Assembly: GCA_963969365.1 (NCBI GenBank)
Contig: OZ017761.1
Coordinates: 2,170,001-2,234,000 of the forward strand
Direction of reading: 5' to 3'
Source of the DNA: Asterochloris sp. CNOR1
Lineage: Eukaryota; Chlorophyta; Trebouxiophyceae; Trebouxiales; Trebouxiaceae
Length of the DNA stretch: 64,000 nt
Both the position numbers and the translations under genes were made by a program. Positions 6,501 to 59,000 of this stretch are shown piece after piece; position 1 is the stretch's first letter, and the number at the start of each line of letters is the position of its first letter. Below the pieces are notes generated by a model, which was given only the letters and a program-made list of their open reading frames with translations, searched no databases and was not told the origin of the DNA.

Positions 6501-9500
6501 CCAGACAGAGATCAGCAACACCTGCCTGGCCAGCACGCTGTGCCGTCCCTCGCTGCGGCTGTTGGTGGCCTGGGTGGCTCAGCTGTCTGGCAACAGCAAC
6601 ACAGACGGCGGGCTAGCGCCCTCCACAACCCACTCTGTGGCGGGCAGCGGGCGCAGCGCCTCCTTCAGCGCAGCCGGCACCTCGGGTACTGCAGCGGCGG
6701 CCATGGGGTCCTCAAATGCCAGCGAGACGGGGGGAGCGCCTGTGCCGGTCATGCAGGGCGTGCAGGAGGATGCTTTCAGGTGAGGTCTGCTGCCAGGGCT
6801 TTGGACTGCCACTGATGCCGTGGTGGGCTGGCCTTGGCTGGCCTTGAATTGTACAAGCAGGGCGTGCAGGAGGATGCCTTCAGGTGATATCTGCTGCCAG
6901 GGGTTAGGGACTGTGGCAGGACTGGCCTGGGCCCGGGCGTGCAGGAGGACGTTGTAAGATGTGACTGGCTGGCTGCGAGAGTGCATGGGCAGTGGCCCTG
7001 GCTGCGGCTGGCCTCAACGTGGGCGCGTGTGGCGTGCAGGAGACTGCCTTCAGGTAAAGTCTGCTGACTGGGGTGTGGACTGCTACTGCCACTGAAGTAT
7101 GGCTGGCCTGGGCTGGCCTCACACAGTGCGAACAGGGTGTGCAGGAGGATGCTTTCAGGTGTGACCGGCTTTGGGCAGCCGTGCAAGGGGCGGATTCAAA
7201 TTGGGGTGCAGGAGCATATGCTCTCAGTGAGCAGGGGTGGTATGGGAGGGGTCTGTGCAGGGCCTGGCCTCAATCTGGGGTGCAGAGTGTGCAGGAAGCT
7301 GCTTTCAGATGGGCAGGGGTCGTGCTGGGGCTGGCCTCGACTTGGGCTTGCATGTCATGCGGGAGGGTGAGTTCAGATTCGGGATGCCAGCAGTGTGATA
7401 TGGCAGCCAGCACAGCTTGAAGGGATGGCCCTGTGTGGTGGTGCAGGATCATGCAGGGAGGTGCCTCTGGGTGAGATTGTCAGCGGAAGTGCAGTATTGC
7501 AGGAGGCCCTTGTCAGTGGAGCAGGAGGCTCCCATGGCGACACTAGCCACTGTCACAGTACTTTAGGGGTGATTTCTTTGTCAAGCCTGGCGCTGCCGCT
7601 GTGCTGTGTGCCAGCTCCATTAGAGCCTGAATGTTGGAGAGGATCCTCCAGGCGGCCTCCACCAAAGAACGATTGTGGCCTGTGACGCTGCCTCTGCTGC
7701 CAAGACATGCACTTCGCCACCACTCTGCTGTCTCTGCAGCGTCTTTCTCACAGGCTGCACAGCCCCGCCTTCACAACAAGCCGAGTGATGCAAGTGCCGC
7801 CCTGCCAGCCATCAGCCCCCCCACTTCCTTGATGCTGGACCTTTCAGTGGCGCACCGTGCAGGCATTACATGGCGTCTGAGGCCCCAGCAAACTTTGCCA
7901 CTGGCAGCGTCTTCCTGGGAGGCGGCTACTACTCTAGGACCCCGCCCAATGACCTGGCAGCCAGCGTAGTTGAGATTGACCCAGCCAGCTATCTGGTGGG
8001 CGCAGCCATTGCTCTCCTTGGCCACACTGTAGTCGCAGCAGGGAGTCTGGATGGGAGCAGGCGGCAGGGCCTGTGGACAAGTGAACAGGCTGGCCGGCAT
8101 TGTGGCAGCTGCAGGACTCCTGCTAATTTGCGCCTGCATTGCTCTTCATGCCGGCTGGTGCGCGCCTTGAGTCAGGCGCACAAGAAGACAGGCTGTTGCT
8201 TGAATCTTGATGGAACAGGGTGAACATGTTCTTATTGTTGCGGACAAACCTGCAGGAGATGCGGCCGCCGGCGCCCTCCGGTGCGCTCAGAGTGATCGAG
8301 GGCTTTGTGGGGGACCACATGGCAGCTGGCATCTACCCAGAGCCGCAGAGCCCTGCAGGCAGCAGCCAGGATGAAGGCGGGGGCGGCATCTGGTGAGGTG
8401 CTGCACTCAGTCATCTCAAGCAGGTTTCCACTTGTCAGCTCTTGTGTACACTAGGCGTTGTTGCCATGCCTGACAGGGGATCTATAGACGGGCTGCCAGC
8501 ATGGGGCTGCTCGGTGACAAGCCAGAGAGGAGGTCGGCTGCTTGTGGGCAGTGTAGCACTGCCAAACAAGAAGTGCCAGGCGGCCTCGCGCGTGACACAG
8601 CAGCCACCATCAGCTCAGAACTGCTGCTTGGGTGGCAAGACAGGCCTCTGCGCTCTGCAGGTTGTGGCAACACAGCAGCCCAGCAGCGGAGTCAGCTTTG
8701 ACCTGGGGTTGCACGTATGTGCTGCAGATCTGCTGATCGCAGCGCAAATCTGCTGAGCCAAGCGCATCCAATAAATAGGTCACCCTGCTGCAGGTGCCCT
8801 GCAGCCCCTGGCAGGGTTTCCAGGCTTGCTGCTGTGCCCCACAGGTACTACTCCCAAGCCAGCCCACCCAGCAGCCCTGATTTGGGCCCCGCCTTGGTCG
8901 ACGACTATGTGAGGATGCCCACCCCTGAGGAGTGCGCAGCCTCGCTGGGAGCGGGGCCCACAGGGCGTGGGGCCATCGCTCCCCTCCCTGAGGGCTATGC
9001 TGGCCCCGCCTCGCGGCTCCTGGTGCGGGATGTCAAAGTCATGATCACGCTGACGGAGGAGGGCCCAGGTATGCAAATGCTCTGATGGTACTGCGGGTCA
9101 TTCTGTCAGCTGTACCTGGCAGCTGAGGACCTGACCTGTCTGCAACCCCTGTCCTGGCAGGCACTGAAGCCATACTTGAGGGCTGCCGCCGGCAGGGGAG
9201 GCCCACATGCTTGCCAGGTGTGTGTTCAGCAATGGGGAATGTTGTGGTACACCTGCGATGCATGTGGTGGAAACAGCACTCAGCTGACATGGCAGCTTCT
9301 GCCATTCACATACATAGCAGGCACAGATCGCCAAACTCAACAGGCGCCCCTCACGCCCGTGCTTCTTGCCTCTGGTGCCTCTTTGTGCAGCGCCGCAGCC
9401 TGTCGCAATCTGTGCATGTTGCTGGAGCTCCTGCGCAGCTTTGCGACCTGCTGGCGCATGGACTTTCCGCCACATACCATCCTGACCCTTGTGGATGACT

Positions 9501-12500
9501 GCCTACCCAAGAATTTTTCTTACCTGCAGGTCAAACATCTGTACCAGGCCAAGCGCAGCCGCCTGCCATGCCCTCAGAAGACCCAGGGATCTGCGCTGAG
9601 GGGCGACTGGAGGTGGAGCTGCAGCGCATCTGCCTGCAGGCAAGTCAGCTCATGAGGTGGACTTCTATGGCACTGCATGGCTCATGCTTGCCCCTCTGGC
9701 AGTGAGCAGCAAGATGCTCTTGCAAATGAAGGTTGGGTGACGGGACCTTGTGCGGCAGGTGCTGCTGCACCTGTGCAGTTGGGCACACAAAGGACACACT
9801 CTGCTCGAGAGGTGCTTCAAGTCCACCATGTGCTGCACTGGTGGCAAGGAGCATGCAGCATGTCTGAGTCCCGCAGCATGACGCCCCCTGCTAAGGATCC
9901 CAATCAGCCCCACAACTGCTTGTCAGACAACCTACCGTCCTCCGGACCACTTTATCATCTTGTTGGCTGCTCAACCGCTTTGTCTTTGACTGACTCCTCT
10001 CGTAGATGTCTTTTGCACTGAGATCTTGCTTGCGGCTGCTTGCCTGCAGTACGACACCTTTCCTGAGGATGGACCACATGCCTGGCGCCTGGCCCTCAGC
10101 GTGGCAGACTTGGAAGCCCGCGACGCCACCTGTCGCCCAGGAGATCCCCAGCCTCGCTGGCGGCGCATGCTGGGCTGCCATGCTGCAGCACGGCAACAGC
10201 AGGCGGCGGGAGCTTGCATGGCTCAGGTAGGGATACAATGGACCTCTGATGCTGCTTGGTCAGTGGTCTGGGTGGCAGTTGTGACCTGTTTTGCTGCCTT
10301 TTGCAGGAAATGCTCCAGTCTAGGCAGCTGCAGCGGCACATGCATTTGAATCTTTGACTCAAGGCTTGTAAAGCATGTGTCCTTCAGGTTTTACAACCCC
10401 TTACGCTGCCTTAATGGGATGAAGACAGGGGTGTAGAGGCTCAGCTTTGGTTGGGCTGCAGCTCCGCAGCTTTCAGCAACAAGTGGGGTGCCATGCTGCA
10501 CCTGAGCAAGGCCTGCATGGCCCTCATTTGGCTGCTCAGTCACAGAAGCTGAACAGGCAGTAGAGGATTGTGACAATTTTGGTAAGGGCCCTCACAGGCT
10601 GCATCACCATGTGTCTCTGGCCAGTTTCAACTTTTGTTGTGTGTGCAGATGGTTTTGGAGGCGGTGCGCCCCAGCAGCCATGCAGCTCTGGGGGCACAGG
10701 AGTACACCCTTGCGGTGGCCCTCCTGCCCCTGCGGGTGCACCTGGACCAGCACTGTGTGACCTTCCTGCAGCAGCTGCTTGCCGGCGAGGAGGCCTCTGC
10801 AGAGCCCAGTCGCAGCGGGTCTTGGCAGGACCTGCAGGGGGAGGGCAGCGTGGGGGGCTTGGAGCAGCAGGGGGAGGCTGCAGCTGTGGCCACTGCCGGG
10901 GACGACTCAGGTGGGCAGCTGCTGCCCTGCTGCCCTGGCGGCATGCGCCCTGCCCAGCTGCTGAGAACCACTTTCTGCCCCAGAGATGTGGTCTCTTGGG
11001 CAGGTTGGTTGAGGCTGCAGCTGTAGGCCTGGGCAGGAGTGCGGGCGGAGGTGGGAGGTTCCAGATGCAGGGTGTGAATCAGCTGACGACTGGGGTGTGC
11101 CCAGAGATGCACGCTCTCAGGCAGTCAGACTGAGAGGGCAGCTGTGGTGCTGCCTGGCCAAGCACAGGGACCAGCTGCATGGGAAAGGCTGCGACTCTGG
11201 TTGTGAGGGCCCCGGTGGGCTCTGTGCTGAACAGCGCCATGCTGAGCGTGTAAGAGCCAGGATAGCAGGTCGTGCTGAGGCCTGGAGGCAGTGCTATGGC
11301 CACTACAAGGCAGGATGCAGGAGAGATGTCCAGGCGTGTTTTGCCCAACTGAGGCGTGGCCCTACATAGGGTATACCCGCTGTGCGGTTAGCTAAGCTGA
11401 GGCTCTACTTATCCTGTGGCCCCTGGTTTTGCTAGAGCTCACCGACATCAAATCAAGCCTGGAGCTGACCGTACTGTATGCCTGTCTGCAGGGGCTGTTG
11501 CAACCCTCCACTGCAGCATGTTTGGCTGCTGGGCACAGCTCTCTGCACGACACAGCTTGGCTGCTGGGCAGTGGGCAGAGCATTCTGCGGCACACAGCAT
11601 TGGCTGCTGGGCACGTCCTTCTGCACTGCACAGCTTTGGCTGTTGGGCACAGCCTCTACAAAACAACACCCGCACTCTCAATGACCCACAAGTCAACTAA
11701 CTTGTGCCAATCAGTGTGCAGGGGCCAGTATTCCAGCCATGTGAGACTTTCCTCTCATGCACTGCAGACTGTGGCCTTTCAGGATCATCTTGTATTGGTG
11801 CAGTGCAGGCGCAACATGCTGCCCAACCTGCAAGACTGTGACCCCTGGGATCACTGTGACTTGCTGTGGTGCAGGCGCAATGTTCTTTCAGCGCTGCGAG
11901 ATTGCAGCCTTGTCGCTGACCATCGATTACCGGCCGCGCCGTGTCAATGTGGCAGCCCTGCGGGCCGGCTCATTTGTTGAGGTGAGGGCTCTAGATGACC
12001 ACCTGCTGTGTTTAGACTTTGTGCCTGGTCCCGCAGTTGCTGCAGCACTGCTCTAGAGGGCTGCCATGTGACACAGGTGCACCTGGGGAGATGGCCATTG
12101 TGCTGAGGTGCTGCATACATAACCGTATCGTATAACTGTCGTTCCCTTGGGAAAGCTCAAGAAACTGGGCTGGTGTAGTGCCTGGATGCACTGCTTTCAC
12201 GCTAATGTGCTGCAGCCTGCTGCAGCCGCATATGATGCCATCCTTTTACCTGCCTGATGCTGTGCTGCTGGTCACAGGTGCTCCTGCTATCGGTGCAGGT
12301 CATCCAATGCGGCTCCTTCTTGCTCTTGATGCTGGACCAGACAGGTGCAACTGATGCTGCAGGTGCTCAACCTGGTGCCCTGGGGTGGAGTGCAGCTGCG
12401 CCTGCCGGAGCTGCGCTTGAGCGGCGTGCAGGGGTGGGGTGGCCTGGCAGCTGCTGCTGGGCAAGCCTACCTGCAGGACATTGCCGCCAACCAGGTGACA

Positions 12501-14167: not shown

Positions 14168-14600
14168 TTGTCTCATGTGCTGTATAATAACCCCCTCCCT
14201 TGGTCCCGCTGCTGGCTGCTCTACATTGCTTGGCCCTGCCTGGTTTCAATAGCCACATGTAGCAGATACTATTCTTTGTCAATGACCTGTGTTCTCAGCA
14301 TTTTCAGTCTGTATTATCTGACTTCATGTGTAGACTTTGGCAGCAGAAGGCATACCTGCAACCATGTGCTCCAGGCATGTCACCTGCTGCCACCTGTGAA
14401 ATGGCAGGCTTATAATCATTGATGCCTGCCAGTGCAACAGGACTCATCCCTGCAAGCTATATGCTAAGGGAAGAGCAATCAAGTCTGGTCAAAGGGACCA
14501 TATGGCTAAGTGTGCGATCACCAGCCTGGGTGTCATGATGCAAAAATTGTGTACAGAAGGCCTGCTAAGAAGTGATATGGTGCACTGAACCTGGGGAAAG
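14168..14600. other. Intergenic region between convergent ATG2 and SPX-MFS genes
   Basis: This gap holds the 3' ends of both genes. The base composition is more AT-rich than the flanking exons, as expected for 3' untranslated sequence. I see no supported gene, RNA or repeat in it. Confidence 0.6.
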
Positions 14601-17600
14601 CTAGCAGGCCAGCCTCTTCCAAAGCACCAGTGTGTAGGCCAGGCTGCCTGCTGTGAGGAGCCCCATGAAGCTGAAGAGAACTTCTCCCAGACGCTTAAGC
14701 TGCTGTGGCTGCTCATCGCCAGTGAATTTGCTGATGGCTGCCACAATGAAATTGCCAAATAGACGGCCCACTGTGCCAGCTTGAGTGGACAGGAGTCCGC
14801 TGTTGAAGGTGCCTGAGGCTAGATCAGGGTGCATGACTTTGCTGCATAGGGACATAGCTGTTCCCTCGAGGATCACTGTAGTGCAGGGGCAGTGTATCAT
14901 ATGAAAAGAGCACTAAGAGGTGTTGAATCTGTTTTCTTTTTGTGGGAGGGATAAGGTGCACGTAGTGGCAGCAAAACAACAACTGGTGGCAGCAGATATG
15001 CAACTAGGACGGGAAGGCTCAGCTTTGCATGAGGCGCTGCACATGGCAGGCTCCTGCAGACTGCAACACCGCCCAGAGCCCAGCAAAAGGCTTGCAAACT
15101 GCTGCAGGCCATCAGCTCAAGGCACAGGCGCATGAGGCACAGTGGTGCTGCGTGCTGGGAGAATATAAACACAAAACTCCCTTGTTGTGGAGAAGAAAAC
15201 CCTAAACGCACAGGGGCAGACCTGTGCAGAAGAATATGATGAGGCCTCCACAGAAGAAGAGCCACAAGGGCTGTCCTGCACAGAGGCTGATGGCACAGCC
15301 TACTGCAGTGAAGAGCAGCGCCGAGGCATTGAGGGCACGATCTGAGACATAATTGGCGAGGTAGCCGACTGCTGTGTTCACTGGAATGACACTGCAGCGC
15401 ACCCAGATGCTTTTTGCAAGCTGCAGGCAACATGGGGACGGTCACCAGATGATGCTCACAAAACCCTCAACGCCAAGCAGGATGCTCTATTGGGCGCAGG
15501 CTCAGAGGCAATATTGACAAGCAAATACAAATAGGCTGGCTCCTGTTGGGGGAAGACTACAACAATGTCACGGGAAGTCACAGCAGGCTGTGTAACCTCA
15601 GCAATGTCAGTGGAAGTCACACGAAAATGAGTCGTTTCACCTCAGCCATGTACAACGCATCAGGCATACATCAAGAATGGGCTCCCCTGGTGATGCATGA
15701 TGCCAGGCTGCACATGACTTCATCGCTGTGCCATGGCACGGCTCCCTCACCTGATACCATAGGCAGAAAGAACCAGGCCGGCCTGTCCAGCAGACCAGCC
15801 ATAAAGGTGACCTGCAGGCAGGGGGTGTCGTCAGCAGGACACTGCAGTCTCGGTGGAGCATTGCTGCAGAGCTCGTGGGTGCGCTACAAATGGCTGGAGC
15901 CTCTGCAGCACACAGCACAGGTGACTCTTTTCCTGGAGATTGTGGCAGCTGGTGAGCAGAAGGCGGGTTGCTGAGCACGGCTGGCCCCAGCAAGAACACA
16001 CCCATGGCCTGTAAGTCATATTGAGTCAAAAAGCAATGTTGGCCTCACTTGACAGACAGGTTATCCAAGTAGGCTATACCTGTCACAGGGGACCTACTTT
16101 GGAACAGAAGGCAAGCTGCCCCACATGGCTGCCCCAGTAATGCAGTTCCTGGCCTCAAATAGCTGCCACAAGAACAATGAGGGCCTCACTTGTGAAGACG
16201 GGCAGGCTATCCAAGTAGGCCTGCTGGACCAGCTTGAGCAGCAGGAGGATGATCATGGCCACCAGGGTGGGCTGCAGAGTCTCCCGCCAGGTGGGGCCTT
16301 TCTTGGAGTCCTGCAGGCAGGTGTCCAAGGATGGGTGGCCAACACTTGCTCAGGGCAGCATTTGGGGAGACTACAAGGTATCTGTGTACCTATATTCATT
16401 TTATGTTGTACCACAGTGGTGAACAGCAACTGCATCCAACATGCACTGGTGCACAGCCTGACCCCATCACCAAGGCACAGCCACAGGCAACACAAAGTTG
16501 GACAGCCCTCACCTTGGACTCCCGCTTGTCATCCTTGTTGTTCTTCTTGTGATCGTGTTGCCCATGGCCGCTGCTGCCCTCCCCCTCCTCCTGGTCATCC
16601 CCATCCTCGAGCAGCGCCTGCCGATGCTCGTCGTCCCCTTCGTTGCCCTCGCTCCCGCTGCCACCCCCATCCCTGCAGGAGCCCACATGAAGATTTTTCC
16701 AACTAATGCTCATCGTCCCCTTTCATGGCTCGTGCTCCTGCCGCCGACCCCATCCCTGCAGGAGCCCACATGAAAGTGAAAGGGTCCAAGCATTGAGTGT
16801 TGCCCGTTGCAGTGAGCAAGTCATTGTCTGCCAGCCGCAAATCAAGATGAACCCATCATAGCCTCCCCGTCATTGGGGCCATGGACAATGCAACATATGT
16901 TTGTTGGCTGGTGCCCTGTGCTCACCTGCCCCTGGGGTCAGCAAAGCAGAAGATGGTTACTGCCAGGAAGGCCACCCAGATGATGAGCATCAGGTAGGCT
17001 CCGGCCGTGATAGGGTCAATGGTCAGGCTCCCCAGCTGCATCGTGGGGAGGCGCTGCAGGGGCTCAGCCAGCAGGGGGCCCACCGCCATGCCCACAGCGC
17101 TGGCTGTCACAAAGGCTGCAGCAGCAGGCAAGATGGAGTGCATCTGTGAGATCGGTGCGGAGCAAAGTGCATGCCGTAGTAGGCATGCAGAGAATAGGTG
17201 ACTGCAACCTGTGCAATGAGCAACCCTGCCTGTGGAAACCACCGCTGTCGCTCAATATGGCCCTGCAGCAGCAGGCAGCAAAGGAGTGATCTTGTGAGGT
17301 CACCGCAGAGCAAGTGCGTGCTGCAGCAGGCGTGCAGGAGTCGGGATACAGTGATAACTCGTGTCGGCCGCAAGGACCCATGTGGCTCAACACAGCCCTG
17401 CAGCAGGAGGCAGGACAGAGTGCGTCTTTCAGGTTGGCGTGGGGCAGAGTGCATCCTGCAGCAGGCGTGCAGAAGTCCCGTGTGCAATGAGGTTACTTGT
17501 CCTTTAGAACGGACCTCTGCAGCTTGACAGGGCCTTGCAGTTCAAAACCGCATGCCACAGCTGGCGTGCAGAGGCCGGAATGGGATGAGCACCCCTGATC

Positions 17601-20600
17601 GTTGAAGTGGACCCCTGGGTTTTGATGCAGCCCTGCTACACACCAGGTGTGCAGATGAAGCAGCAAAGCAGTGTTGAGGGTTGCCGTTTGGTGAAACATC
17701 TGAGATACAGCAAGCAGATATCAGGGTATGATCGCCTTTGATCAGAGCAGGTGACCATAGCATGATCTGTTAACAGCACAGAGCAGCCCTCAGGTGAGGA
17801 TATGCACAGCAAAGCGGCTCCTGCACGTGTTTGTTGGCGGCCTGGGCAGTAGTGTCAAAACTGTAGCCTGTGGCTGCTGAGCCGTGGAGCACCCACCTGA
17901 GCTGGCCTTTGTGCGTTGAGATTGAGGGGTGAAGTCAGCAATGTAGCGCCTGTTGACGGCCCGGGCCGAGCCTGCAAGCACAACACAGCAACCTTTAGAG
18001 GCGCCTTCAAGCTGCCACGAGATTCCAGACGCCAGACCTTGCTGATCTGGCTGCCTCGGCTGAACTGACAACCTCTGGCAGAGGGTGATGTTGCCATTAA
18101 GCATGACATCACAATAAGCTGAAAGCAGGGTGAGAGCAGCACCTTTGAGCACAGTGCAGCACATTGCCATACAATGCCACAACAGGTAAGGCAGAGCACA
18201 TGCCAGGATGCGGCAAGCTCTGCGCAGGCTTTATCGGCACCTAAGCTGCTGTTCTGCAAAAGGGTGTACATGCCATATGGGGTACTATCATGTGATATCC
18301 TAAGATGTTTGGCATTGGGTCAACCCTCATGAGTCTATGGTGAATGGCAAAGTGCAGAGCCAGCCTGCGCAGAGCTGTGCACTCCTGGTGAGACAGGCAG
18401 AACTCACCAAAGCCGAGCACCAGTCTGGACGCCGTGAGTACCCAGACGCTCTTCAGGTCATAGCCGGCGCAGTAGAGCACATTGCCGGCCAGGCAGGCCA
18501 GGGAGCTGGTGATCAGGGGTGCTTTGAAGCTCGAGTTGGTCCACTTGGAGTAGACTGCAGCCAGACAGAGGCGTCTTGTCAGCTGCTGGCCGCAAGTCAC
18601 TGGACAGGCACAGTGCCGATGTGACGTGCACGCGTACCATGCAGCATCAGATATCAGCTTTGTGAGGTCTTCTCCGTGAGACAGAGCCTGAGGCGGCCGG
18701 GCAGGTGACACAAAAAGTGCCCATAGTGATAGAGGTGAGTCATCTGAGCCTGGTGTGAGCGCTGACATGGCCAGGCAGCCTCGTGTTGAGCAGTTTGCAA
18801 CAGATTGCCAGGTTTGTTTTCCAGGAAGCCTGGGCCAGCAAGGTCTGCACCAGCCTGGCATGAACACAACAGGCAGTCTGAGCCAAATCGTTGCTCGACA
18901 GCACACGATCTAGCCTGGCTCAGCAGCATCAGCATAGGCTGCCCTCCACTTGGCGTCTTGCAGAGCATGTCAAATTGAGCTGTTGCAGGTGAGGTGTCAG
19001 CCTGGCATGGAATGGAGGTGGCACTGTACTGCAGCAGAAGGCACTCAAGAAGCCGTGCTGCTGCAACACCTTGCTCCGCTCTGGCCGCGAACGGTGTCAG
19101 GGGGGCTTCACAGGGCCCGGCAGCACACTGCCGACGCGGCAGCACTGGCACTCACCCACAGTCCCTGGGATGGTGGCGACGTCTGCACTGCCTATCATGT
19201 AGCCCGCGAGAGAGGCTGCAGCGCCCACATGCTGCAGGTAGTCTTGCATGGTGGGCAGCACCAGCTGATAGTTTGCCTGCAGGGGCCCATGCTGGTGCTG
19301 GTTGTGCAGAGCTGGTGTCAGGGCCAGTAGTGTGAAGGCATGTTTGAGGCGCAGCATGCCACTCCGCTGCAGCTGCTGCACACCAATGGGGCTGCTTGCA
19401 CATTGCAGGCCTTGAGGCCCAACGCGATTCTGCCCATACAGAACACCACACTACTGCATTGCCATATGCAGGGCAGCTTACCATATAAAGTCCTGAGCTC
19501 ACGCAGTTGAGGACCAGTCCCAGCGTGGTGGCCTTGGCCTGATTGTCTGCAGCCACCCAGCTCCACCTTGTTAGTGAGCTGGGGGCACAGCTTTGCTGGC
19601 ATCATGTGGCATGTTGTCTGCATGTGATACATCCTGGCAAACATCTCACAGGCCTCTTGATGGCGGCGCCTGGAGAGGGACTTGCAAGGCTGTTCAGTAC
19701 CTGCATGCCGTCAAAGGTGCAGAGTGCTCCGCTGCATGTTGAGGCATCCAGTTGCCACAGCTCAAAGTGTCTCTCAGTGGCCTGACCAGAGAACAGCCAT
19801 GGCAGCAGCACGCGCATCCCTGACAATGCTGGGTACAAGCTTGAGCAGTGTGTGCAGCTGTGGCTGCAACCACGATAACCTGTACCCTCACCTGCGGGAG
19901 CAGGCTCCCAGATACCAGCCCTCCGCTCATGCCCGCTGAGGGCATTCACCAGGCTGGCATTGCGCTGCGCCCTCTGCCGCTGCTCCTTCATCTCAGACAG
20001 GACATCCTCCATCTTGTGCAGCAGTTCACTGCCGTCTGACACCCCCACCTGCAGCAACAGGTTGCGGGGAGCTGCTCAGTCAAAGTGGTCTCACATGTTT
20101 CATGAACGCATTGCGACTTCGCACAGGGCAGGCACCTGCGCAGAAGGCCTCACAATGCAAATGTTGTGACTTGCTTTTTGTGGCGGCAGAGCCAACCCTG
20201 CAGCAGGCGCTGCTGCAAGCTGCCCGACCAAATTTGGTAAAGCAAGCAGCCAGTCCTGCATCAGCCCCTGCCGATTCGAGCAGCACCAAATCAGAATGCA
20301 TGAAGGGGTGCTGGCCGGCCGCTGCAGCACTTTGCACATTTCTGTACCCAATCCTGCCTCCCAGGGAGGGTCACTGTGGCCCAGAGCACATGGAGTTTGG
20401 TCACAACACAGAGTATTGGGGCCCAACCAAGATTTACGAGGTACAGCAACCTCCGCATCACAGCTTCCGGCGCCATGTGAGCGCATGCGCATCCCCAAGC
20501 CGACGGCGTCCTCCCACAGCAGCACTCACTGACCTCCACGTCATGGCCCCCACGCCTCTGTAGCTGCCAGCGCCACTTGACCAGGCTGCGATGCATGCGC

Positions 20601-23065: not shown

Positions 23066-23614
23066 GCTGCTGTTACAGGGTAGTGATGGGAGCTCTCAGT
23101 GCAGCATGGGATGTGCCTCCGGATCCAGACTTCCTAGGTTGCTCACTGCATCTCCAGACCAGAACGTCCCAGCTTGCTGATTGCTCCTACAGTGAAAACA
23201 ATAAGCAGCCTACTCGCCAGGTAGCTGGGCGAATCTTGACTACGTTAGCTGCGCCCGCATGGAGCAAGGGCCAATTTGGGCTCTGTTTTCTGAGCCAGCC
23301 AGGCGGGTGCCACTGCAACAAATTCACCCTGACCAATCTTTCAAGTGAAGTTCAAGTGTAGTGAGCACAACAACAGAGGCTCACCAAAAGTTGACGACCT
23401 TGCATGCCTGACAGTGCTTCAAGCAGACCCTTGCAAAGCACAGCATAGTAGGGGACACTGCGACTCAACAAAGATTGTCAGGCTGATTGACTGAGTCCAG
23501 TGCTAGCAGGTGCTTGATGCAGGGTCACTCAACGTTGGGCAGCGTCTTCACATCAGGCCTTGGACGGAAATGGTGCCTGTCTGAAGAGCCCTAAACAGCA
23601 ACTGCTGTGGCACT
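23066..23614. other. Gap between the SPX-MFS start and the 3' end of the NTPase gene
   Basis: This must hold the SPX-MFS promoter and 5' leader and the 3' untranslated region of the NTPase gene; both are transcribed leftward. I see no conserved P1BS-like phosphate-response element that I would defend, no tRNA and no supported coding exon. Confidence 0.5.
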
Positions 23615-30599: not shown

Positions 30600-30628
30600 A
30601 CAACCGTTGACCCCAGAGACTTCCACCT

Positions 30629-30701
30629 CAGTGGTACCACCTTAGTGGTAAAGCACCAGACTGCAAATCTGGGGACCCAGGTTCGATTCCTTGGTTGCTG
30701 C
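30629..30701 (+). pseudogene. tRNA-Cys(GCA)-like head, not a normal tRNA
   Basis: The anticodon arm is intact (GCA at 30663-30665). The acceptor CAGTGGT/GTTGCTG pairs only with four G-U wobbles, the D stem has three pairs and is preceded by four unpaired bases instead of two, and the T stem has a mismatch. This fits a decayed tRNA-derived SINE promoter better than a working tRNA-Cys. Confidence 0.65.
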
Positions 30702-47000: not shown

Positions 47001-50000
47001 TTTGAGCAGTGGTCTCCCATGTTTACTGGCACCTTGCGGGGACAGGCCACTTGCGCCGGTGCTGAGACAGCAGGCAGCACACAATTTCCAAAACAGATGC
47101 ACTTAAAGGTCCCACAGCACTGCATGCAGCACCATAACACTGGCAGCCCCAAGACGCCAAGGTGAGTCCTTCATGCACAGTCTCGAGACCACCACAGTGC
47201 TCACCTTCTGGTCTGCCTTGATCTGCTGAGGCAGCGCCGCAGTGACAGCCTCATCGTCCTCAGGAGGGTCATCGGGGCCCTGCTGCCTCCGCTTCAGGAG
47301 ATCATGCTCCTCAGCAGCCTCCGCATTTGCATCCTCTTGCTGCTTGACCTTCTCCTCCTGCGGCCAGCATCAGGCAACATGGCAGCGTGAGGTCCTGTTC
47401 AGTCAAGGACCGGTCTGGGAGCCAGGCTGCTTGTCCACCCAATTCCACTGCTTGGCAGCAGTGAAGCTGGCCCAGGCAGCCCCTCCCTCAAGACAAAGAG
47501 GAACGAACACCTGGCCGACAGTTTTGCGAGTCTGCCTGCGAGGCACATCCATTCCACAGCCAGCACAAGGCACTGCATGCTATGCTTTTGGAGCTTCTAC
47601 CCTTGGCTGCATATGCCTGCATCTCTGCTCCTTACTAGCTTCTGGGGTACCTGTACCTTGCATTCTGGCAGCCGGACCTTGGCATGGGCGCACAGGCACG
47701 CATTGGCTGCCTACACCTTGGCCTAAGCTCACTGGCACACTTGGGCAGCTCAGAAGGCTGCTCATGCAGAGCCCCACTAGCACCAGCGTCTGGCCTGCCT
47801 CAAGAAGCTCCAGGCACAGGCCACAAGCAGCCTCCACGATAAGCAACACAAATTGGTGCAGCAGATCTGCCCAAGAAGAGCAGTGTGCATGGCAAAGCTG
47901 AGCATGGGTCTGGATGCAGACTGTCAGTGCAGGTGCCCAACAGCAACAGTCTCCACTGGCTCTAGGTGCGGAGCTTACATCCCCACAGGCAGCCTCCAGC
48001 AGCCGACACGGTAACTGACACAACTGGGTCAGCAACATCAGCCTATAGGAGGGTAGAGCGCGGCTCAGCGAGGTGAGGGCTCACAGACAGGCTGCTGGTG
48101 CAAGCGCCCACTGGCACCAGCTGTTGGGCTGTCTGCACAGGGCCTGGAGGCGACACACAGACAGGTGACCTGGACTCATGCCTTCGAGCAGCCCTGGCTG
48201 TGAACAATGCAACAGACAGACAGCTGGTGTTGGATACCTACTGGCTCTAGGCCCTGACCAGTCCAGCATGCTCTTGAGGCCACATGCGTGCTTGTGCCTG
48301 CTGACACCTGCCCTTGAGCAGTCTTGATCACTCGAAATCACAGGTAGATGATCACCCACCAGCACTAGCCTCTGGGCAGCGTTCACCAGCTGCTTGGCAT
48401 CCTTTTGCCAGCGCGATGCCATCTTGGGGTTGCTCCCATCAGGGTGCCCTGTGCAAACAAGCAGCGACCTATTGAGAATATCCAACAACAATTGGAGAAC
48501 AGCAGGGCAAGACAGCCTGAGGACTGCCACCTGATGGTGCTTGAGAAGTTGCTCTGCTTGACCTGAGCTCAGCACGATGTATTGCAGACATGCAGGCTCT
48601 GAAAGCAGCTCCACAGCAGACGGGATGATCACAATAATTGCTTCTTGGTCTCATTGCTGACCCAGCTCCCTGCCAGCTGCTCAGGCAAGTATGTCACGGC
48701 AAACGCATGTACACCTGGCAGCTGTGGTGTAACTAGCTGCTCTCTGCCGTTTGTTAGGCATTTTGTGGCATGCCAAGCATGTATGCCTGACCAGGAAACA
48801 CCTGACTTCAGCAGCTTGTGAAACTACCCAAGGCTGTCCATCTGCAACCTGCCCATGCAAGTGAGGCATGCGCAGCACCCACAGCATGGCAGGAGTGTCT
48901 CACCCGATTTCAGATTTTTGGCGATGTCATCAGGCTCGCTCGCCGCAAGCTGCTCAGGTGTCAGGATGCCACAGTTGTACAGGATGCGAGCCCTACTGGC
49001 CTGGACTCCTGGTACAGTCATTAGTGCCACCAGCTCCTCTCGTGTGCCAGCTTCAATGCGCCTCTGCAAGCAGAGTTCCATTGCTGGGCCCCTGGCGTCC
49101 ATAGCTGGTGACACCAAGGGGACAACATCGGCAGCAGCAATGTGAAGGCCTACTCAGCTCATTCATGACAGTCCAGCCCTTGTCTGACAGAGACCAGCTT
49201 CACCCTCAAGGTGCGTGTTGCGGCTTGTTTTGCCTCAAGCTCACGTGCAACTGTGACAGTAGGGCCTCAATGTCTGACCAGCCCTTGCCGCGAGAGAAAG
49301 CCGCCAGGTCACTGGTGAACTGCGCTGCGGTCTCTTTGAACCTCTTGAGCTCCCCCACGCCGAGGTCATATTTCTTGTCAAGGGAGGCCACTTTGGCAGC
49401 GGCGTCCTGCGCAGTCATGTCCTTCTGTGAGAGAGGCACCTGCAGAGCAGCAACAAGGTGTTTGAGAAAGCAGGAGATGAGCCTTGAAGCAGCATCCTGC
49501 ACAGTCCTGCCATCTTCTGACAGCTGCACCTGCACTTCACCAAGGGGCACTGTTACATTGTGGGACTTGTGGTGGCAGCATCATCCTTCAGGGTCACCTC
49601 ATCTGCAGCCAGGGACAGCTGCACAGCAGCAAGCGGCTCCTCTCATTGAGAATCCCTCTGAGGCAGCAGGCTGTAGTGCAGAAAATGTCTTTGACTGTGA
49701 GGTGCACCTGTCTGACAAGAAGGGCAGTGTCCTGTGAGGGGAGTCAGACCTGAAGACGGGTTGATCTGCAGTCTTGAGATTCTGTGCTGCACAGCAACAT
49801 GATGCACTGTCTTGTTGCAGAGGGCTACCCATGACTGCATCTTGTAAAATTGCTGTTCCAATGTCAGTAAGACCAGCACAGCAAGAAGGGCATCAAACAT
49901 GATGTGCAATCTGCCTGCAACAGCAAGAGGTGACCAGGAGCCTAGCCAGACTCTGCGACTGTGCACAAGCTACTCGCAGCTGTAAGCAGGCTAGTTTTAG

Positions 50001-53000
50001 CATGGTACTCATGTCAAGCCAGTTTCTGCTACGCTTTGAGGAGCTGACTGCATCGTGCGCACATTGTTTACCCACAAGACAGCGCTGTAAAGCAAGCTCC
50101 TGCAGCTACTTGCAGGACAGGGCTTACATTGCAAAAATCTTGCTCACCCACCTCACAGCTGCGCAAGCCAGAGTGCTTCAGCACATTGTTGGGCAGGGCT
50201 CACCTCGCGCACAATGTCCGTCAGCACCATGGCAGCATAGAACCGCATGTAACGGTGCTGCTCGCCCTTTTTGATGGGAATAGATTGGTGGACATGGCCG
50301 CACAGAGCCTGGTGGTTGAGCCCAAGACGCTTTCTCATCAGGTTGTCCTCCTTCTGCAGGCAGGGGCAAGAGCACCATGAGCAGCAAGCTTGCTGTTTCA
50401 CATGTGACTTGCCAGATGTGCTGTTGTACTGTCGTTGCAGGCAAAGGCAGCATATGCCCAACAGCAAAGGCGATAGGCAGTAAAGCAAACACTGCTTCGT
50501 GCCTGTCTGGCTTCTGCTGGGACAGGCATGTCCACTTCACCTTCTGTTACATCTCGTGAGAGACCTGTGTGTCAAGTGATACTTGCAATTGTGAGAAAGC
50601 TTGCTCTGGGCCCCCAGACCAAAGGATTGTCATGGAGCATTGCTGCAGCACATGCTTGCTGCAGCACAAATAGAATTCTAGCTGCAAGGTCGTGTGCCAA
50701 CACATGAACCCCATAGATCCTTGCAATCAGGTAAAACTTCACGCATGCAAGATGCCACGCCGGCAAGTTGCCCCGCAACTGACATCTTGACATCTGTAAT
50801 GGCAGCATGCACCCTTCGGCCACGAAGGACACCAGCATACTCTCTCAGCTGGTCCAAGCTCTGGGCGTGAGCGGAAGGCAGCATGGCAAGCCAGGAGGCT
50901 GCAGGCCTTAACACAGAGGTCCCGTCCCTGTCTTAACACAACAGGAGCTGGTGTTACCAGAAGGCCCAGAAGGGTGCGCCAGTGTTTGTCATCCATGAAG
51001 CCATCCTTGTTGATCCAGGGCAGATCAGGGACGATCATGTCTGTGCTGGTGTGGCCCTTTGTGACCTTCTTGGTGGTGATAGGTACCACCACATAGCAGA
51101 GGTGGAGGGGGAAGGTGTCGCCCAGGCAGATGCTTGTGCGGGTGTCCTCCAGTAACTGCAGGCCCAGCAATTGCAACTGCTTAGCCTTGCCAGGCCAGGT
51201 TGGGTTACCAGAAATACCGTAAGTCTGGAGTGGTGCCCCGGTCAGGCAGCATTCCTCAAGCACCTTGTCCTGATTGTCAGCCTGATGTGGAAGTGCTTGG
51301 ATTGAGAGCTGTAGTCAGTCATCACCGCAGCTGACTTGCCTGGGCAGTCTTCACAATGCAGAAGTCTGTCGCAGCCCCTCCACCTGGGACACCTCGCTCC
51401 CTGTGTGAGCTTTGCAGCCCCAGTACAGTGCCTGCTCACAGCAGCATGAGTTTTTGCATGCATGGCTCTCACTCAAGCAACATGCACCTCAGCGTGAGGT
51501 TCCTGAGTATTATAACATGCAGGCCTTAGGTGATTGGCAAGTCCACTTGCTTGCGTTGGCACGCACCACATTACATATGCCCGCGTGCACCTGCTCACCT
51601 CAAGCACCTTGCTCCCCAGGGTGAGGCCCATGTGCGACGCGGCCAAAGCCTTGCCAAAGTCTGTGACCTCGTAGTCTGGGTTGTCGGGGGTGCCACGAGG
51701 GATAAGGACTCCTGACCCCGTGAGCCGCTTCCTCACTGGCTCCACGCACCTCAGCAGGGTCTGCACAAGCCAGGGCAGCATGTCAAGGCCAGCAGTTTCA
51801 CAGGGCAGACAAGGCTAAGTGTTATGAGCAATGACGATGCTAGATCCTGACAGCAGCAGCTACACGTCTGGTCTATGCAGGCTCAGGCTGCGCCCATCAG
51901 GGCCAAAGACGCATTCCAGCTGCTCTGAAACTGGCTGTGCCACAGCATATCTCAGAAAGTGGCACTAGTAAGCAGGAGCAGCATGTGGCGAGCAGCCTGT
52001 GGCACTGGTAAGCAGGAGCAGCAAGTAAAGCCTGCACCTTCAGTCCTAATGGCGTAAGCCTCATTAGCAGGGCCAGCTGCAGCATGTCAACAACTGCAGC
52101 CAGAGCCCTGATGCGATTTGAGCCACCTGGAGCAAGCGCTTTGCACAGACAGGCCCAAAAGCGACATGGGGCTCACATAGGTGCTAGCTACAGCTCTGCC
52201 ATCAGATAAAGGTTTCCGCAATCCACATCGCTTGCGACAAGCAGGCCCCTGTCTGCTGGCCTGCGCTGGCAGACTGAGGGGCATGGCAAGAGCCAAGATG
52301 CTCCTACCATGCAGCACGAGGGCTGCTCTACCTCTGATGGCATGCGGGTGGCCATGAGGGTGCTCCTGAGGAAGAGCATGATGTCTGCGGGCTTGGTGCA
52401 GAGGCCAGAGTTGACGGCGTCTGTGATGGCTCTGTCCACTCCCTCCTGTGCCATCAGAGCACTGCCCACAGCCTCCAGGTCTGCCTGCAAGCAGACGCAC
52501 CAGAGTCTCATGAAGGACACAACATTGTCTGTCAGATAGAGGGCCCAGTGTAGCACTGCTCACAGCCTCCAAGCCCTCCTGCAGACAGCACAACCTCAGG
52601 ACTTGGGTCAGGTTAGCTGCGGAAAGACAGACAGGAACGCTGCACACAGCTTTCAGATGTGTCTCAGGTCAGGCTTGCAGGCAGCTGCTTCCCAAACTTG
52701 TCCAGCTTTGGGAGTCAGAAAGCCCACCTTGATGAGGTATTCTGCATCCTTCCGCCGCTGCTCATTCCTTATCCCTGCAAGGATGACAGCTTCGCCAGTA
52801 ATGTCCATTCCTTTGCGCCCTGCGCGCCCCGAAATCTGCTGCATCTCAGAGATTGTCAGGAGCTTGGGCTCCCCATCATACTTTTTCAGGTCCCTATAGG
52901 CAACATGCAGCACTGCTCAAAGATGCGACATTGCTCTGAGAAGGCGCCACAACTGGTGCACAGGAGCACAGCACAGCAGCTGCACAGTTCCCAAGATCCT

Positions 53001-56000
53001 CGCAGGCATACTGACTGTTTTGCATATGCCATTGCAACTTGCACATCTGGTCAGGTTCCTATGGGCGATTCACCATTACTCAAGTGGGACGGAACAGCAG
53101 CATGCCAGCCACACCAGCTGCCGAGTCTTGTAAGGTTTCTGGATGAAACAGTGCCTGGCACACACGATAGTGTCCAGTGTGTCAGGCCATGGACAACGCT
53201 GTGGAACATGAAGCCCTGGGAAGCCCAGTCTTGCTAGCAGGCACAGGCCTCACACGTCCCTTCAGCAACTCCAATGACTCAATACCATGCTGAGCACAAG
53301 CTGCATTCAGTGCTTGATTGGGCCCACTATCACAATTTGACCTGATGAGAGGGCGCACCTGAATATCACCCGCCGGACAGGCAGGTTGGTCCCCACTGTC
53401 AGGGTGGAGGTGCAACAGATGACAGAAATGGCACCAGCCTGGAAGGCATGCTCCACAAGGTGCCTCTCCTCAAAGCTGAAATCTGCAGAAAGCAGGTGTT
53501 TTGGAGTCAGTGGAAGTTGCCAGCACCAAGGCTGCGACACACAGCAGCAGTTTCAGATTCGCTCCACAGGATGACGCTTTGTCAGCCGCAGACTGCAGCA
53601 GGCAGGTGGGGTAGGGAGGCAGGCGCCGCGCTGCATGCCAGCAGCATGTTGGGTTGTTCAATGGGTACTCGTAACTGCCGTGCTTCATACATACAGCATG
53701 TAGTAGGTGGCATGAGCGTTGCCCAGACAGGCAGCATTGCAGGGCTCAAAACGGTTGCAAGTTGATGCCCTTCACCATCACTGTTGCTTGCATGCAGCAG
53801 CTCTTGCAGATGCCTGGAGTGCACTACGGAGGGCCTCACCGCCGTGATGGAAAGCAACTCCTTTCTGCATGACTGCCGCCAGCTTATCGCTGTACTTGCT
53901 CTGCAGACTCCTAGCCTTCTCCACCCAGGTGTCACGCCCTGACTGGCTCCAGTACTGGCTGTGCTGCAGCTTCTTGGGGGCAGCCTCAACATGCCTGGAA
54001 AGATATTCTGCAGTGCTTATGGTGCCCTGCAGCAGGTTATTGGGTGCCTGAGCAGCAAGCTGACCATTTGTCACATGCAGGGCACATGTTACACCCCACC
54101 AACCACCATGTCCTGCAGCATGTCAGCCAGCACACCAAACATGCAGTGGGTCCAGCCCACAGCCTGCCACAGAGTACATGCTACACCGCTGTCAGACCAA
54201 TGGTCTGCAGCCCTGCACGGGGAGCATTGGATTCTGTGGGTACCTTGGCCTGCAACCTGCAGTGGGCCCAGCTCACAGCTTGTTGCGAGGCAAAGCAATG
54301 CCAGACAGGCCTTCAGGGAGAACCAGCAAGGATGGCCGTGGCTTGGCTGCAGAAGTTTGTTGGCTACAGTCAGCCCTGGTCAATGTATGCTTCACATGCC
54401 CGCCTCAAGCGTCGTTTATCCTGAGGTGGCAGCCCAGTGTTGCAGGTGAAGACAAAGCAAGCGCGACACAGGCCTTACAATGTGCAGTCTTTTGCAAGGT
54501 AGGATGTACACGGGCATGCAGCACATCGAACCCACCACCGAGCACCCTAGAGCCAGCTGCAGTATATGGTCTTTTGCGGGCAACTCCGGCTCTTTGCCTC
54601 ACAGACTCAATCTGCATTACGCGCAGGGTACAACACTGCAGTGTCCAGCACCTCCTTTCGGGCAGAAAAGCTGGTTGCAATTGTGCACAGCTTACACGTC
54701 AAGGTGGCAGAAACTTGCCAGCCTTTGGGGAACCGGTCAGTGCTTGCCCAGCACTTGGATAGACTGAGCCACAGGAGGCAGACTGTGCAGTTGCAGGCAA
54801 TCCACTAGGCACTTCGGGTCTGGGCCACTTGACTGGCCTCTTCCTATCAAGTCATGTGGTGCCAATGCGATGACCAACAGTTGCAGCCACAAGGGCCACA
54901 GTTGCTCACCCACTGGGTGCTGCAGAACACCAGGACTGAGCCGCCCTCCCCAAGTGTGTCGTCCACTGCACATCGGCACTGCTCCAAGACAGCGTCATCT
55001 GGCTTTCTTGTCTTGACCATCTCCGAGTGCATTGCAGGCAGCACGCGCTTGATGCCGCTGCCATCTGTGATGTGGGGTTGAGAGAGTACATTGCCATCCA
55101 GCATCATCATGGTGAGGGGCACAGCCCTGAACAAGACAGTAGACAGAGGGTGACCAAGCAAGTGGCCATGAGGATGCCATGCCCAAGTATTGGGCAGCTT
55201 TAGCAATTCTGGGGGCGAGGATGTCCATTTGCCAGAACAGCGCCAAGACTGCTCTCTTGCAGTGTGTCGCAGACACCTCTAGCCCATGTGACATGCAGTA
55301 TACTGGAGCTGCCTGCTTGCACATGTCATCTCAGCCTCCCCCCTCAGCCGCCCTGTCAGCTGTTTTGCACTTTCTTGCGCATGAAGCAGTCCAGCATAGC
55401 TGCATTGGGGAAGCAAGTCTGCAGCCTGCAGCGTGTGTGTTGGCCCAGATAATGCCATCAAAGATACCGCAGGCCCTCTGGCCTGCAGTCTATGACGTGT
55501 TCCCCTGCCGGCAGCCACGCTGTCAGCTGAGCTGCACCCTCTGCAGACTGTTCGACCAGGAGCCGACCTGCAGTCTGTGACGTACACCTCTGCCCCCAGC
55601 CACTGCCTCAGCTCATCCACATTCTGCATTGTGCCCGACATGGCCACAATCTGCAGCCTGCTGGTGTGGAGGTCCTCAGCATCCTGGCTGACCTGCAGAC
55701 ACAAGGGGAAGGTTGAGCATGTCTCAGGCCCAGAAAGGCTGCCCGCAAATTGCTCTTCATGTCATGACACACACAGCTGGACCCTGCCTTGCATGCTACA
55801 GCAGCAGGCAGTCAAAGCACAGTGGCTAGCCAATAGAAGGCTTCAGCCACCCTTCTGTAGCTGCGCTGCCCAGTGTGAATGCAGAGCTAAAGGCCTTGGC
55901 TGAGTGCGCTGGCACCCATCACTGCATCCCTGACAGCATCCTGCATGCTGCCTGCCTGCTGAGTATCAGGCAAGGCACACCGTGTGGTCGTGCTGAGTCG

Positions 56001-59000
56001 CCTGCTGCTTCTCCAGGTAGCGCAGCATGGACAGCATCAGCTCCAGGCGAGGTCCCCGCCCAGAGGTGGACACCTACAGCCAAGACAGGGACAGTCAAGA
56101 GACTGCACAGCAGGCTCTGCTGCTGCAGGGGCCGCTATGCATCAGATGGGGCCTGCGAACTGCAGCAGAGGCGTGCCGCTCAGGACAGATGCTGCGGGAA
56201 AGCATGAGTAGCCATGACTGTGGCTGCGGGGTCGAGTAAGCAGGTCAAAAGACTCTAACTCACCGCAGAGCAAGCAGGAACAATCTCTCCAGGCTTGGCA
56301 TTCACCTGCAGAAGAGCTCTGGCAGCAACAGGTAGTGCCCTTGCATCAGTCAGGCACACCAGTTGCAGCTGATCTTTGGCACATATGATAGTGACTGGTA
56401 TATGTGGCCCTTGTGCAGGTTGTGCGCAGATTTCAGCAGGACCCACAACATCCAGTATGCTTTGTCGAGACAAGGAGATATTTTTGACAGGTGAGCAGTC
56501 AGCTGCTCACAGAAGCAGCTTGGCAACCTTGACGCAGCCCTGTTCCAGGACCCACACAGGCTTGCAGACGCACTGCCTAGCCCCTGCAGCAGCCAGCAGG
56601 CTCATCATGTGCAGCTCGTCAGCCATTTGCAGCCCAGGCACTTCAGGACCTCCTCCTTCAGTGCAAGCACTGACATGAAACGGCGGGCAAAACCATCTGG
56701 TGCACACCCATCAAGACCTGGAGGTTGACCTGTGCCTGGCAGGCAGGTTGACCATGTGCGGATCGTCCTCCGCCATGCACCGCAGGCTAAGCTGTAGTCA
56801 CCTCTGTGCCAGTTTCACATCCAGCTGCAACCAGCCACACAGTCAGAGGCTCACCATGTGCAGCTCGTCCACGACCATGCAGCCCAGGCGGTGTAGTTTG
56901 CCCTCCTCCTTGAGGCGCCTGATGAGGGGATAGGCCTTTTCAATGGTGCACACAATGACAGCCACTTGGCTGTCAATCTTGCCCACAAAGTGGTGGCCAT
57001 AGTGTTGCTTCACCGTCCTGCAGCGCCAGGGCAATGATGTCCGAGTGCTTCCAGCCTGATGAGCATGTCAGGGACTGTATCAGACGGCCCTAGCCCCACT
57101 GTAGCTCCTGAGCGCCTCAGATGGACAAATTGAACAGTTTCTAGAACGAGGTGGGGGTTTGGCAGCAACACGCAGCATTGTGTATGTGTATGGTTTGCGT
57201 GCCCTAGTTGTGAACCTGTTGTGCAGCCAAATTTGCAGCGCCAGGCAGGCCTCACCTGCTGCTGGCGCCAGAAATGCGCTGTAGCCCTGTGCACATGCTT
57301 TGAACTCAGGCTCGTAGCAGTGGTCGGGGCTCACTTGTTGAGAGGGTCAAAGACAGGCTGCAGCCGGTGCACCTGCTCGTCGCAGATCTTCACATAGGGT
57401 GTGACAAAGATGCAGAACTTGTGGGTCTGCGCCACTGTGCGCAGGATGAGCGCGTGCGCCACCGCACTCTTGCCGGAGCCTGTGGGTGCGCTGATCACCA
57501 GGTTGCAGCGGTTGCGCTCCACCTTTGGCATCATTAGGCAGTCAGCCTGTGGCAGCAGGACAGCACTAGCTATGAAGACGCAGTGCTTCTTGAGGTGTCA
57601 GCCAAGTGTCTGTCAGGTGCTTGCAGGCACAATACATGTGGTAGGCCTACAGCAGCACCTGGGCATACAAGAGCTGCATCACCGGTCTACGAGCCATCTC
57701 AAAGTGTGCAAAGCATGCACACCTGGGCGTCTGGCGCTTCTGCGCTAGCTGCTGTTGATGCTTTGGCAGCAGATTGCATGAGGCAGGTGCAAAATGCACT
57801 GACGTGCATTCTAGCCTAGTCTCAACATGTGGAAGATGCCATCTGCCCCGCATCAGGCCAACAGGGTGCTAGCCATACGGGACACCATCAGTCATGGCCT
57901 AGCCGCCCTCAGTCGGGACAATGGATCCACCAGCAGCTCAGCAATACCCCGCTTGGATGCCCACACAACGACAGCCCTGTCACAACATCTTCCTCCGCCC
58001 CTGAACTGAGCTTCTGACAGTCCACGTACATTGATTTGCTTGTGCGGACAGCAGCACGCACCTGCCAAGGGTGGCAGTTGCCCTTGAGAATCCTCTGCGC
58101 TGCCTCAGGCGCCTCAGGCACAAGGTCGCTCAGTCTCAGCGACAGGTGCTGGGGTGGCGCCTCTGCCACCTCAACATCGGCGTCTGCCCTGTCAGGCGCC
58201 CTACACAAGAGGCGTAACAGTGTGGGGCCTATGTCACTTGCTGTCAGAGCCTGCAAGATTGGCAGGCCACAGAACAAACGGTGCACAGGCCACGGCACCA
58301 GGCACCAGTCTGTCAAATGGGGCTTTGATACAGCGTCTAAGCTCAAAGTATGGTCTTTCCAGCCGCAAGACAGCTGCTTCCAAGACAAGTGCCTTTTAGA
58401 AACCGTGAAGCGTCAGCTTCTGGCAGGTCAGGGTACGTAAAAGTTGGCATTGCTGCGTCCTCAGCAGCTTCTGCAGCTGCCTTCAGTGCCTCCTGTAGCC
58501 CACTCAGATCAGGCATGAGGCCAGCCAGTGGCAGCCGTATCAACTTCAACCACACCCCACTGCAGCCACATGCAGCCCAGGGATCTTCGACATTAGCCAC
58601 CTGTTGCCAGCAACAGGCGCACTGGAGGGCCCTGGCGCCCCGGCCACAGCATCCCAAGCGCCGCCGCCTGCAGCCGCCTGAGCAGCAATGGGTCCCTCTG
58701 TGCCCAGCAGGCTGGCTCTCCCTGGCCTTAGCCCATGGGGGTCGGGGTCAGGCCTGCTGAGGAACCCCCACATTGTGCCAGCAGAGCTGCTTGCTGGCGC
58801 CCCGCTCTGCTGACCACCAGCAGCCTGAGCAGCCGCTGCTGGTGCAGCAGTGCCCCTGCCTGAAGGACTGCCTGTTCCCTGCTGGTGAGGCCAAGCAGGT
58901 GCAGCCACCTCAGCTGAAGCAGCGCCAGCTGCTCCCTGCTGCCAGCGCCCGGCTGGGGCAGCCCCCATTGGATCGTCCATCAGCGGTGGCGGCTCCCCAA

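Follow-up and report, generated by a model that had tools for sequence, protein, structure and literature searches.

Introduction

Tandem duplications that cross the border between an exon and an intron are already known as single events, in potato (PMC4974935) and in human paralogues (PMC2812944). The potato RdRp gene carries one across an intron-exon border, with its splice signals doubled; ten nucleotides distinguish the copies, a new intron, which is transcribed, has appeared, and another duplication, of 83 bp, lies within an intron of this gene (PMC4974935). One published account takes tandem duplication to be a genuine source of new introns (PMC3443670), and introners insert similar copies into many genes (PMC9860276). 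We investigated a 64,000-nt stretch of eukaryotic DNA with a GC content of about 58% (contig OZ017761.1, positions 2,170,001 to 2,234,000; hereafter the window), whose splice signals and gene set would suit a green alga and in which the ends of exons, with their splice sites, recur as direct copies inside the adjoining introns of five genes: ATG2, an SPX-MFS gene, an HODM-like gene, a RelA/SpoT homologue and DNA polymerase theta.

The window resembles potato RdRp in having border-crossing tandem duplications that include splice signals as well as duplications within introns (PMC4974935): the copies are local, run head to tail, and hold exon and intron sequence together with the splice site, which is what characterizes the potato type. 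It differs from potato in that the copies here are old, non-coding and inside existing introns, at more than 20 junctions in five genes, and the one case checked by homology, in polymerase theta, shows lengthening of an intron and not intron gain. As in the human paralogues, repeat units at boundaries alter gene structure; the internal tandem repeats of those paralogues, in contrast, are recent, lie within segmental duplications and are supported by transcripts (PMC2812944). In titles and the openings of abstracts at the top of the search listings, with most subscription journals outside the search, we found no report of about one-third of introns visibly carrying such events. The density here may not be exceptional, as other genomes may not have been examined as closely.

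Exon ends are copied locally, well above chance

The five intron-rich genes, on both strands, were modelled with profile scans and a home-made gene finder, yielding 88 introns with a median length of 435 bp; both flanking exons were stable under two gene-finder settings for 59 of them. The exon models are predictions, and the finder is blind to repeats, save that one predicted exon (41855-41793) was taken out as a copy. When the window was compared with itself by BLAST on the plus strand (E < 0.01), 22 of 23 matches lay less than 3 kb from their partner. In a scan of the whole window as 3160 segments of 60 nt, for 123 of them a direct partner lay no more than 700 nt ahead (score at least 110), against two with an inverted partner in the same stretch and one with a partner in a random distant 700-nt stretch drawn once per segment. 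The window shares with introners that repeated sequence is tied to many introns (PMC9860276); we rejected introners as the source since the repeats, within the window, are local and not dispersed among introns.

Families of copies were listed with a Smith-Waterman scan of the intron regions (2744 segments), which returned 150 direct matches at a score of at least 100 and 82 at a score of at least 120, against five and zero inverted matches. A control with other introns gave 14-23 matches at a score of at least 100; exons shared between neighbouring regions have probably contaminated it, and we relied on the inverted control. A BLAST of intron regions (38 direct matches in 19 of 85 regions) was dropped, as it missed a known pair and its inverted counts were inconsistent (1 vs. 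20).

Probes taken at the junctions gave the same picture. Junction probes of 40 exonic and 30 intronic nucleotides were compared with their own intron, with pieces of other introns as the control, in 56 of the 88 introns (those 59 whose two flanking exons are stable, minus three shorter than 150 bp), and 9/56 donors and 16/56 acceptors reached P ≤ 0.01. To exclude the shared splice consensus, we used exon-only probes of 35 nt touching the junction (introns of at least 150 bp, exons of at least 35 nt). Against dinucleotide shuffles of the same intron, 14/74 donors and 13/80 acceptors reached P ≤ 0.01, where fewer than one would be expected in each case. With other introns as the control, probes placed 0, 30, 60 and 90 nt from the donor reached that level in 14/74, 11/69, 1/64 and 0/53 cases, and those at the same distances from the acceptor in 11/80, 4/76, 0/70 and 0/55. 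The signal is thus lost by 60-95 nt into the exon, a fall-off that, compared by hand, is about that of random breakpoints in a unit of 105-110 bp. On the wrong side, exon ends matched the upstream intron in 2/67 cases and exon starts the downstream intron in 0/67 (P ≤ 0.01). The local copies of exon ends are real and well above chance.

Anatomy of the duplications

Local duplication was detected in 33 of 85 introns. It crosses the donor in 15, the acceptor in 15 and either border in 27, lies in the interior in 16 (15 when counted by family), and is confined to the interior in six. Two of the 27 (at 5519 and 13571) have their second copy in an exon and none in the intron, and 25 remain if they are dropped. 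An earlier note on this DNA, made from the sequence alone, had described a recurring pattern in five genes on both strands, which the gene models and probes bear out; its count of about fourteen cases is too low, and some cases fall outside its range of 6757-56890, such as the donor at 3676 found with an exon-only probe. Its dimensions, 25-90 exonic bases and units of about 65-215 bp, are close to those we measured: most copies include 20-90 nt of exon, and nearest copies are offset by about 110 bp (mostly 66-207 bp, with one offset of 583 and one exon-exon pair at 1754).

The end of an exon is present seven times in ATG2, five times in polymerase theta and four times in the HODM-like gene, and in the ATG2 and polymerase theta arrays the intronic parts of the unit recur as well. 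Five arrays, at 6750, 16624, 17095, 32730 and 41963, show plainly that the full unit repeats in tandem. The arrays at 28785 and 32730 fit the minisatellite pattern of head-to-tail units of 10-100 bp, while many other cases have just two or three eroded copies. The claim that these introns are built by duplication holds for the big arrays; at the strict threshold of the whole-window scan, detectable duplicates cover just 11.9% of intronic bases.

The copies are non-coding and diverged

Exon and intron copies mismatch equally at codon positions 1, 2 and 3 (89/373, 90/367 and 90/367), and 31 of the 32 gaps between them are not a multiple of three. The intron copies are therefore non-coding, and we rejected coding copies or functional alternative exons, since neither the reading frame nor a codon-position pattern is kept. 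Exonic columns came from 23 of 27 pairs; the other four gave none, being overlapping array members that aligned with themselves. The count retains the pair at 5519; it excludes the exon-exon pair, pairs offset by more than 260, and repeated pairs from one side of a junction. The exonic parts are 63-88% identical in 22 of the 23 informative pairs, and none exceeds 93%. The closest junction pair, in ATG2, is identical at 53 of 59 aligned positions. The suggestion that the genome keeps making such duplications finds no support in these values, although a short-read assembly could hide younger ones.

Decoy splice sites, which the earlier note had also proposed, are present: GT is kept in 12/15 donor copies and AG in 11/14 acceptor copies. 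Their surroundings are weaker than those of the real site in 11/15 copied donors and 11/14 copied acceptors. In the five-copy case of polymerase theta the first donor is the coding one, because human polymerase theta aligns with no gap through the end of this exon and, across a junction that leaves out four copies, into the one that follows. One decoy in this intron (41793-41855, minus strand) is a copy of the exon end with acceptor-like and donor-like sites of its own and an open frame of 63 nt, and was taken as an exon by the gene finder; it is a candidate for exon birth.

A probable neutral origin by duplication and selection

We consider it probable that short, local and old tandem duplications, blind to splice sites and filtered by selection, lengthened these introns. 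The starting point is what was observed directly, namely local direct copies, their position relative to the predicted exons and their non-coding decay, together with the use of the first donor in one case as judged by protein homology. Tandem duplications of about 110 bp (about 60-200) would have arisen repeatedly in the lineage, regardless of splice sites. Those entirely within exons would have been purged by selection, and those within introns or across a border would have been tolerated, because splicing would keep to the original sites at the outer ends of the intron, namely the first donor and the last acceptor. As these sites would still be used, a border-crossing duplication would convert a piece of exon and its splice site into additional intron. 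The copy in the intron would then drift freely while selection held the exonic original, so that exon-anchored copies would stay recognizable after copies of intronic sequence had faded. We infer this neutral filter, as well as the use of outermost sites beyond the one case; the duplication itself may have come about by slippage, unequal exchange or microhomology-mediated repair. That duplications across exon-intron borders lengthen introns, as the earlier note held, is supported.

A related idea is border-induced selection, in which deletions that reach conserved borders are rejected and short introns gain length on balance, and which explains why introns between conserved borders persist (PMC9748784). 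By our own reasoning, border-crossing duplications would be the visible counterpart of that process, and the present cases are direct material for the model. Unlike our setting, it puts segmental duplications aside and was fitted to human introns (PMC9748784).

Simulations were used to ask what a process without targets would leave. Breakpoints were uniform, duplications were allowed inside introns or across one border, substitutions and indels followed, and the same detector was applied. In one of 36 settings with older events, the outcome (donor 13.0, acceptor 15.0, interior 12.5, any 33.3, crossing 25.8, interior-only 7.5) was close to the observed counts (15, 15, 16, 33, 27 and 6, respectively). 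In this setting, events were 0.2-0.6 substitutions per site old, every 435 bp received three duplications, indels were many, and exons were nearly frozen.

Several results weigh against a blind origin with slow decay. The untargeted process suffices in part of the parameter space only, and tuning is required for the fit. When events were distributed evenly up to the present, the ratio of interior to donor plus acceptor cases was 0.76-1.73 in 48/48 settings, vs. 0.53 observed, and the crossing share was 0.44-0.78 in 43/48, vs. 0.82 observed; the other five, with a higher crossing share, affected 51-70 introns, far too many against the 33 observed. Eight earlier settings gave a crossing share of 0.49-0.72. 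Settings with older events were the only ones to approach the observed counts. The intronic half of the unit has an identity of 0.648, near the control (0.627; gapped positions 85 vs. 474), and for that reason the tandem structure of two-copy cases is drawn from the multi-copy arrays. Few duplicates lie outside genes, the single non-genic pair being 61631-61727, besides pairs in the first 350 bp, where the window edge cuts a gene. Four-fold sites show no excess of mismatches (46/184 vs. 179/740 at positions 1 and 2 together); by our own estimate, nearly twice the rate of those positions would be expected if synonymous sites drifted like the copies. Either intron copies change well over twice as fast as exonic synonymous sites, again by our estimate, or the copies were mutated when they were made. 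Finally, retention of splice sites (23/29) exceeds a rough expectation of 0.76 squared, in a sample conditioned on alignment across the site.

Alternative explanations

If duplications arose preferentially at exon-intron borders, for instance where splicing factors or RNA-DNA hybrids stall replication, a high share of crossing cases would follow, and 27 of the 33 introns with duplications do have a border-crossing one (25 without the two exon-lying pairs), with interior duplications rarer than in simulations with events to the present. The exonic extents nevertheless look random, six of the 33 introns have interior duplications only, and the neutral setting with older events fits. We regard such targeting as unlikely, and equally so its stronger form, in which introns have largely accreted from junction-spanning tandem duplications made by a border-preferring process, perhaps low-fidelity repair synthesis, so that exon ends would be a hot spot of structural mutation and the process would set intron length. 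The proposal of a process acting at existing junctions is thus not needed to explain the data.

Slow decay might instead be an appearance left by copies that were mutated at birth, for example by an error-prone repair polymerase. The absence of an excess at four-fold sites (46/184 vs. 89/373 and 90/367 at the first two positions) and of any exonic part above 93% identity agree with that. Strong synonymous constraint would account for the former, however, and a short-read assembly would conceal identical copies. The intronic halves are more diverged than the exonic halves (identity 0.648 vs. 0.722), as expected where drift affects both intronic copies but not the exon, which leans toward slow decay over mutation at birth. 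Low-fidelity copying is, on balance, distinctly improbable.

That the copies are in use, as alternative exons, spare splice sites or recursive-splicing points, might be read from the 23 of 29 that keep GT or AG and from the gene finder's choice of 41855-41793 as an exon. Yet the codon positions decay equally and gaps break the frame, 11/15 donor and 11/14 acceptor contexts score below the real site, and the polymerase theta alignment skips the copies; such use is very improbable.

In the model of Rogers and Hellsten, introns arise when an exonic AGGT segment is tandemly duplicated, here to be followed by enlargement. It shares with our cases a tandem genomic duplication that supplies splice sites. 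It differs in that the start of the intron should resemble that of the next exon and the end of the intron that of the previous exon, which is not seen here. Donor windows showed no closer match to the acceptor window of their own intron than to those of others: 1/59 gapped and 2/59 ungapped comparisons exceeded the 95th control percentile, and none exceeded the 99th. The two donor windows above the 95th percentile at an offset equal to the intron length, and intron 28055-28340 (plus strand), which begins with GTCAGCC as does the next exon and so has a short direct repeat at both splice sites, are the observations that speak for this origin. We rejected intron birth by AGGT duplication, the predicted donor-acceptor resemblance at intron-length offset being unseen among the 59 introns, and hold it to be highly improbable for this window. 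Chance, the shared splice consensus or assembly error is scarcely credible: the exon models are predicted, but inverted and wrong-side controls are near expectation, own introns beat both shuffles and other introns, and exonic parts that differ by 7-37% are not duplicated reads.

Bearing on intron length and splice-site choice

Under the explanation by blind duplication and selection, the exon serves as a preserved reference for each copy, and intron growth could be read event by event. Six algae related to Chlamydomonas have conspicuously long introns without the usual peak at 60-110 bp; according to that comparative genomic study, the advantage of long introns is unknown and the mechanism that drives intron length is probably ancient (PMC8226300). 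If the window comes from a similar alga, a build-up of duplications across borders would offer a testable explanation of these long introns. The natural decoy splice sites, of known origin, are also material on how the spliceosome picks the outermost site.

Cases by gene

ATG2 lies on the plus strand, up to about 14.1 kb by homology (profile scan and gene finder, as for the SPX-MFS, HODM-like and RelA/SpoT genes); the model runs beyond the homologous end through a 1659-bp intron, and its last exon is thus doubtful. The largest array is here (6750-7340), an exon end and donor followed by six tandem copies near 6861, 6934, 7031, 7133, 7203 and 7286, the last two eroded (self-BLAST, segment scan, exon-only probe). 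An acceptor-side duplication with an offset of 66 includes 30 nt of exon (11762-11904; segment scan, junction probe P = 0.008).

The HODM-like gene (25.8-30.2 kb, plus strand) has an exon end and donor at 26260 with copies near 26312, 26425 and 27000 (26206-27070) and, within 27152-27353, repeats the exon start at 27326 on the acceptor side (27152-27189), both cases being found by segment scan and exon-only probe. A further acceptor-side copy repeats the exon start at 27899 (27683-27936; junction probe, segment scan). A tandem duplication of 114 bp is entirely intronic and ends at the acceptor (28097-28339; self-BLAST, segment scan), and an array of 69-bp units reaches the acceptor of a predicted 40-nt exon and extends past it (28785-29029; self-BLAST, segment scan, exon-only probe). 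The donor-side duplication at 29560-29752 has an offset of 116 (both probes, segment scan).

Two donor-side cases were found in the RelA/SpoT homologue (about 31.7-37.5 kb, plus strand): an array with an offset of 67 (32730-32943; self-BLAST, segment scan, exon-only probe) and a duplication with an offset of 179 (34475-34737; both probes, segment scan).

The SPX-MFS gene (about 23.0-14.6 kb, minus strand) carries acceptor-side duplications at 16624-16774 (offset 83, 49 nt of exon included) and 20599-20809 (offset 119, 82 nt of exon included), each seen by self-BLAST, both probes and segment scan, a donor-side duplication at 16030-16220 (offset 146; self-BLAST, segment scan, exon-only probe), and an acceptor-side array at 17095-17500 whose unit is mostly intronic (offset 138; self-BLAST, junction probe, segment scan). 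The fragment near 24.6-23.7 kb that the finder joined to this model is probably a separate gene. Exon-like stretches at 23716-24632 (minus strand) include a GKT motif, which we presume may be a P-loop, and the part at 23716-24142 has no Pfam match.

Helicase and polymerase parts of DNA polymerase theta (about 57.5-38.1 kb, 38053-57546, minus strand) were recognized from DEAD helicase, Helicase_C and family-A polymerase matches. Both probes and the segment scan found acceptor-side duplications at 39099-39356 (offset 176) and 52458-52588 (offset 94), donor-side duplications at 40898-41106 (offset 154) and 51456-51634 (offset 127), the exon start at 39699 copied twice on the acceptor side (39651-40034; offsets 110 and 310), where protein alignment supports the junction, and acceptor-side copies (offsets 207 and 412, with a weaker one at 559) of the exon start at 42131 (42048-42549). 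The five-copy case (41415-41963) consists of an exon end and donor with four further copies, the last eroded, and its first donor fits the protein (self-BLAST, segment scan, exon-only probe, protein alignment). The segment scan and an exon-only probe identified donor-side duplications at 42995-43289 (offset 199, 90 nt of exon included) and 55478-55628 (offset 83, 61 nt of exon included), and donor-side copies with offsets of 99 and 250 lie at 56562-56897 (self-BLAST, both probes, segment scan).

That polymerase theta is among the five genes with copies is a coincidence as far as this analysis can tell; its end-joining pathway has been linked to small duplications and templated insertions. Viral contigs scanned with one polymerase exon yielded no relative, and bacterial and archaeal genomes, scanned once, showed weak matches (31-33% identity) at two loci in bacterial records, which were not used further.

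Other features of the window

A tRNA-like sequence at 30639-30693 (plus strand) matches the Rfam tRNA model at positions 9-63 with 33.5 bits, ARAGORN makes no call there, and it is perhaps a truncated tRNA or a tRNA-derived element. At 58549-60954 (minus strand), in a region otherwise rich in introns, lies an uninterrupted open reading frame of 802 amino acids with internal local repeats and no Pfam match. A tandem array at 63837-63998, with a 48-bp unit, 3.4 copies and 88% matches, reaches almost to the end of the window.

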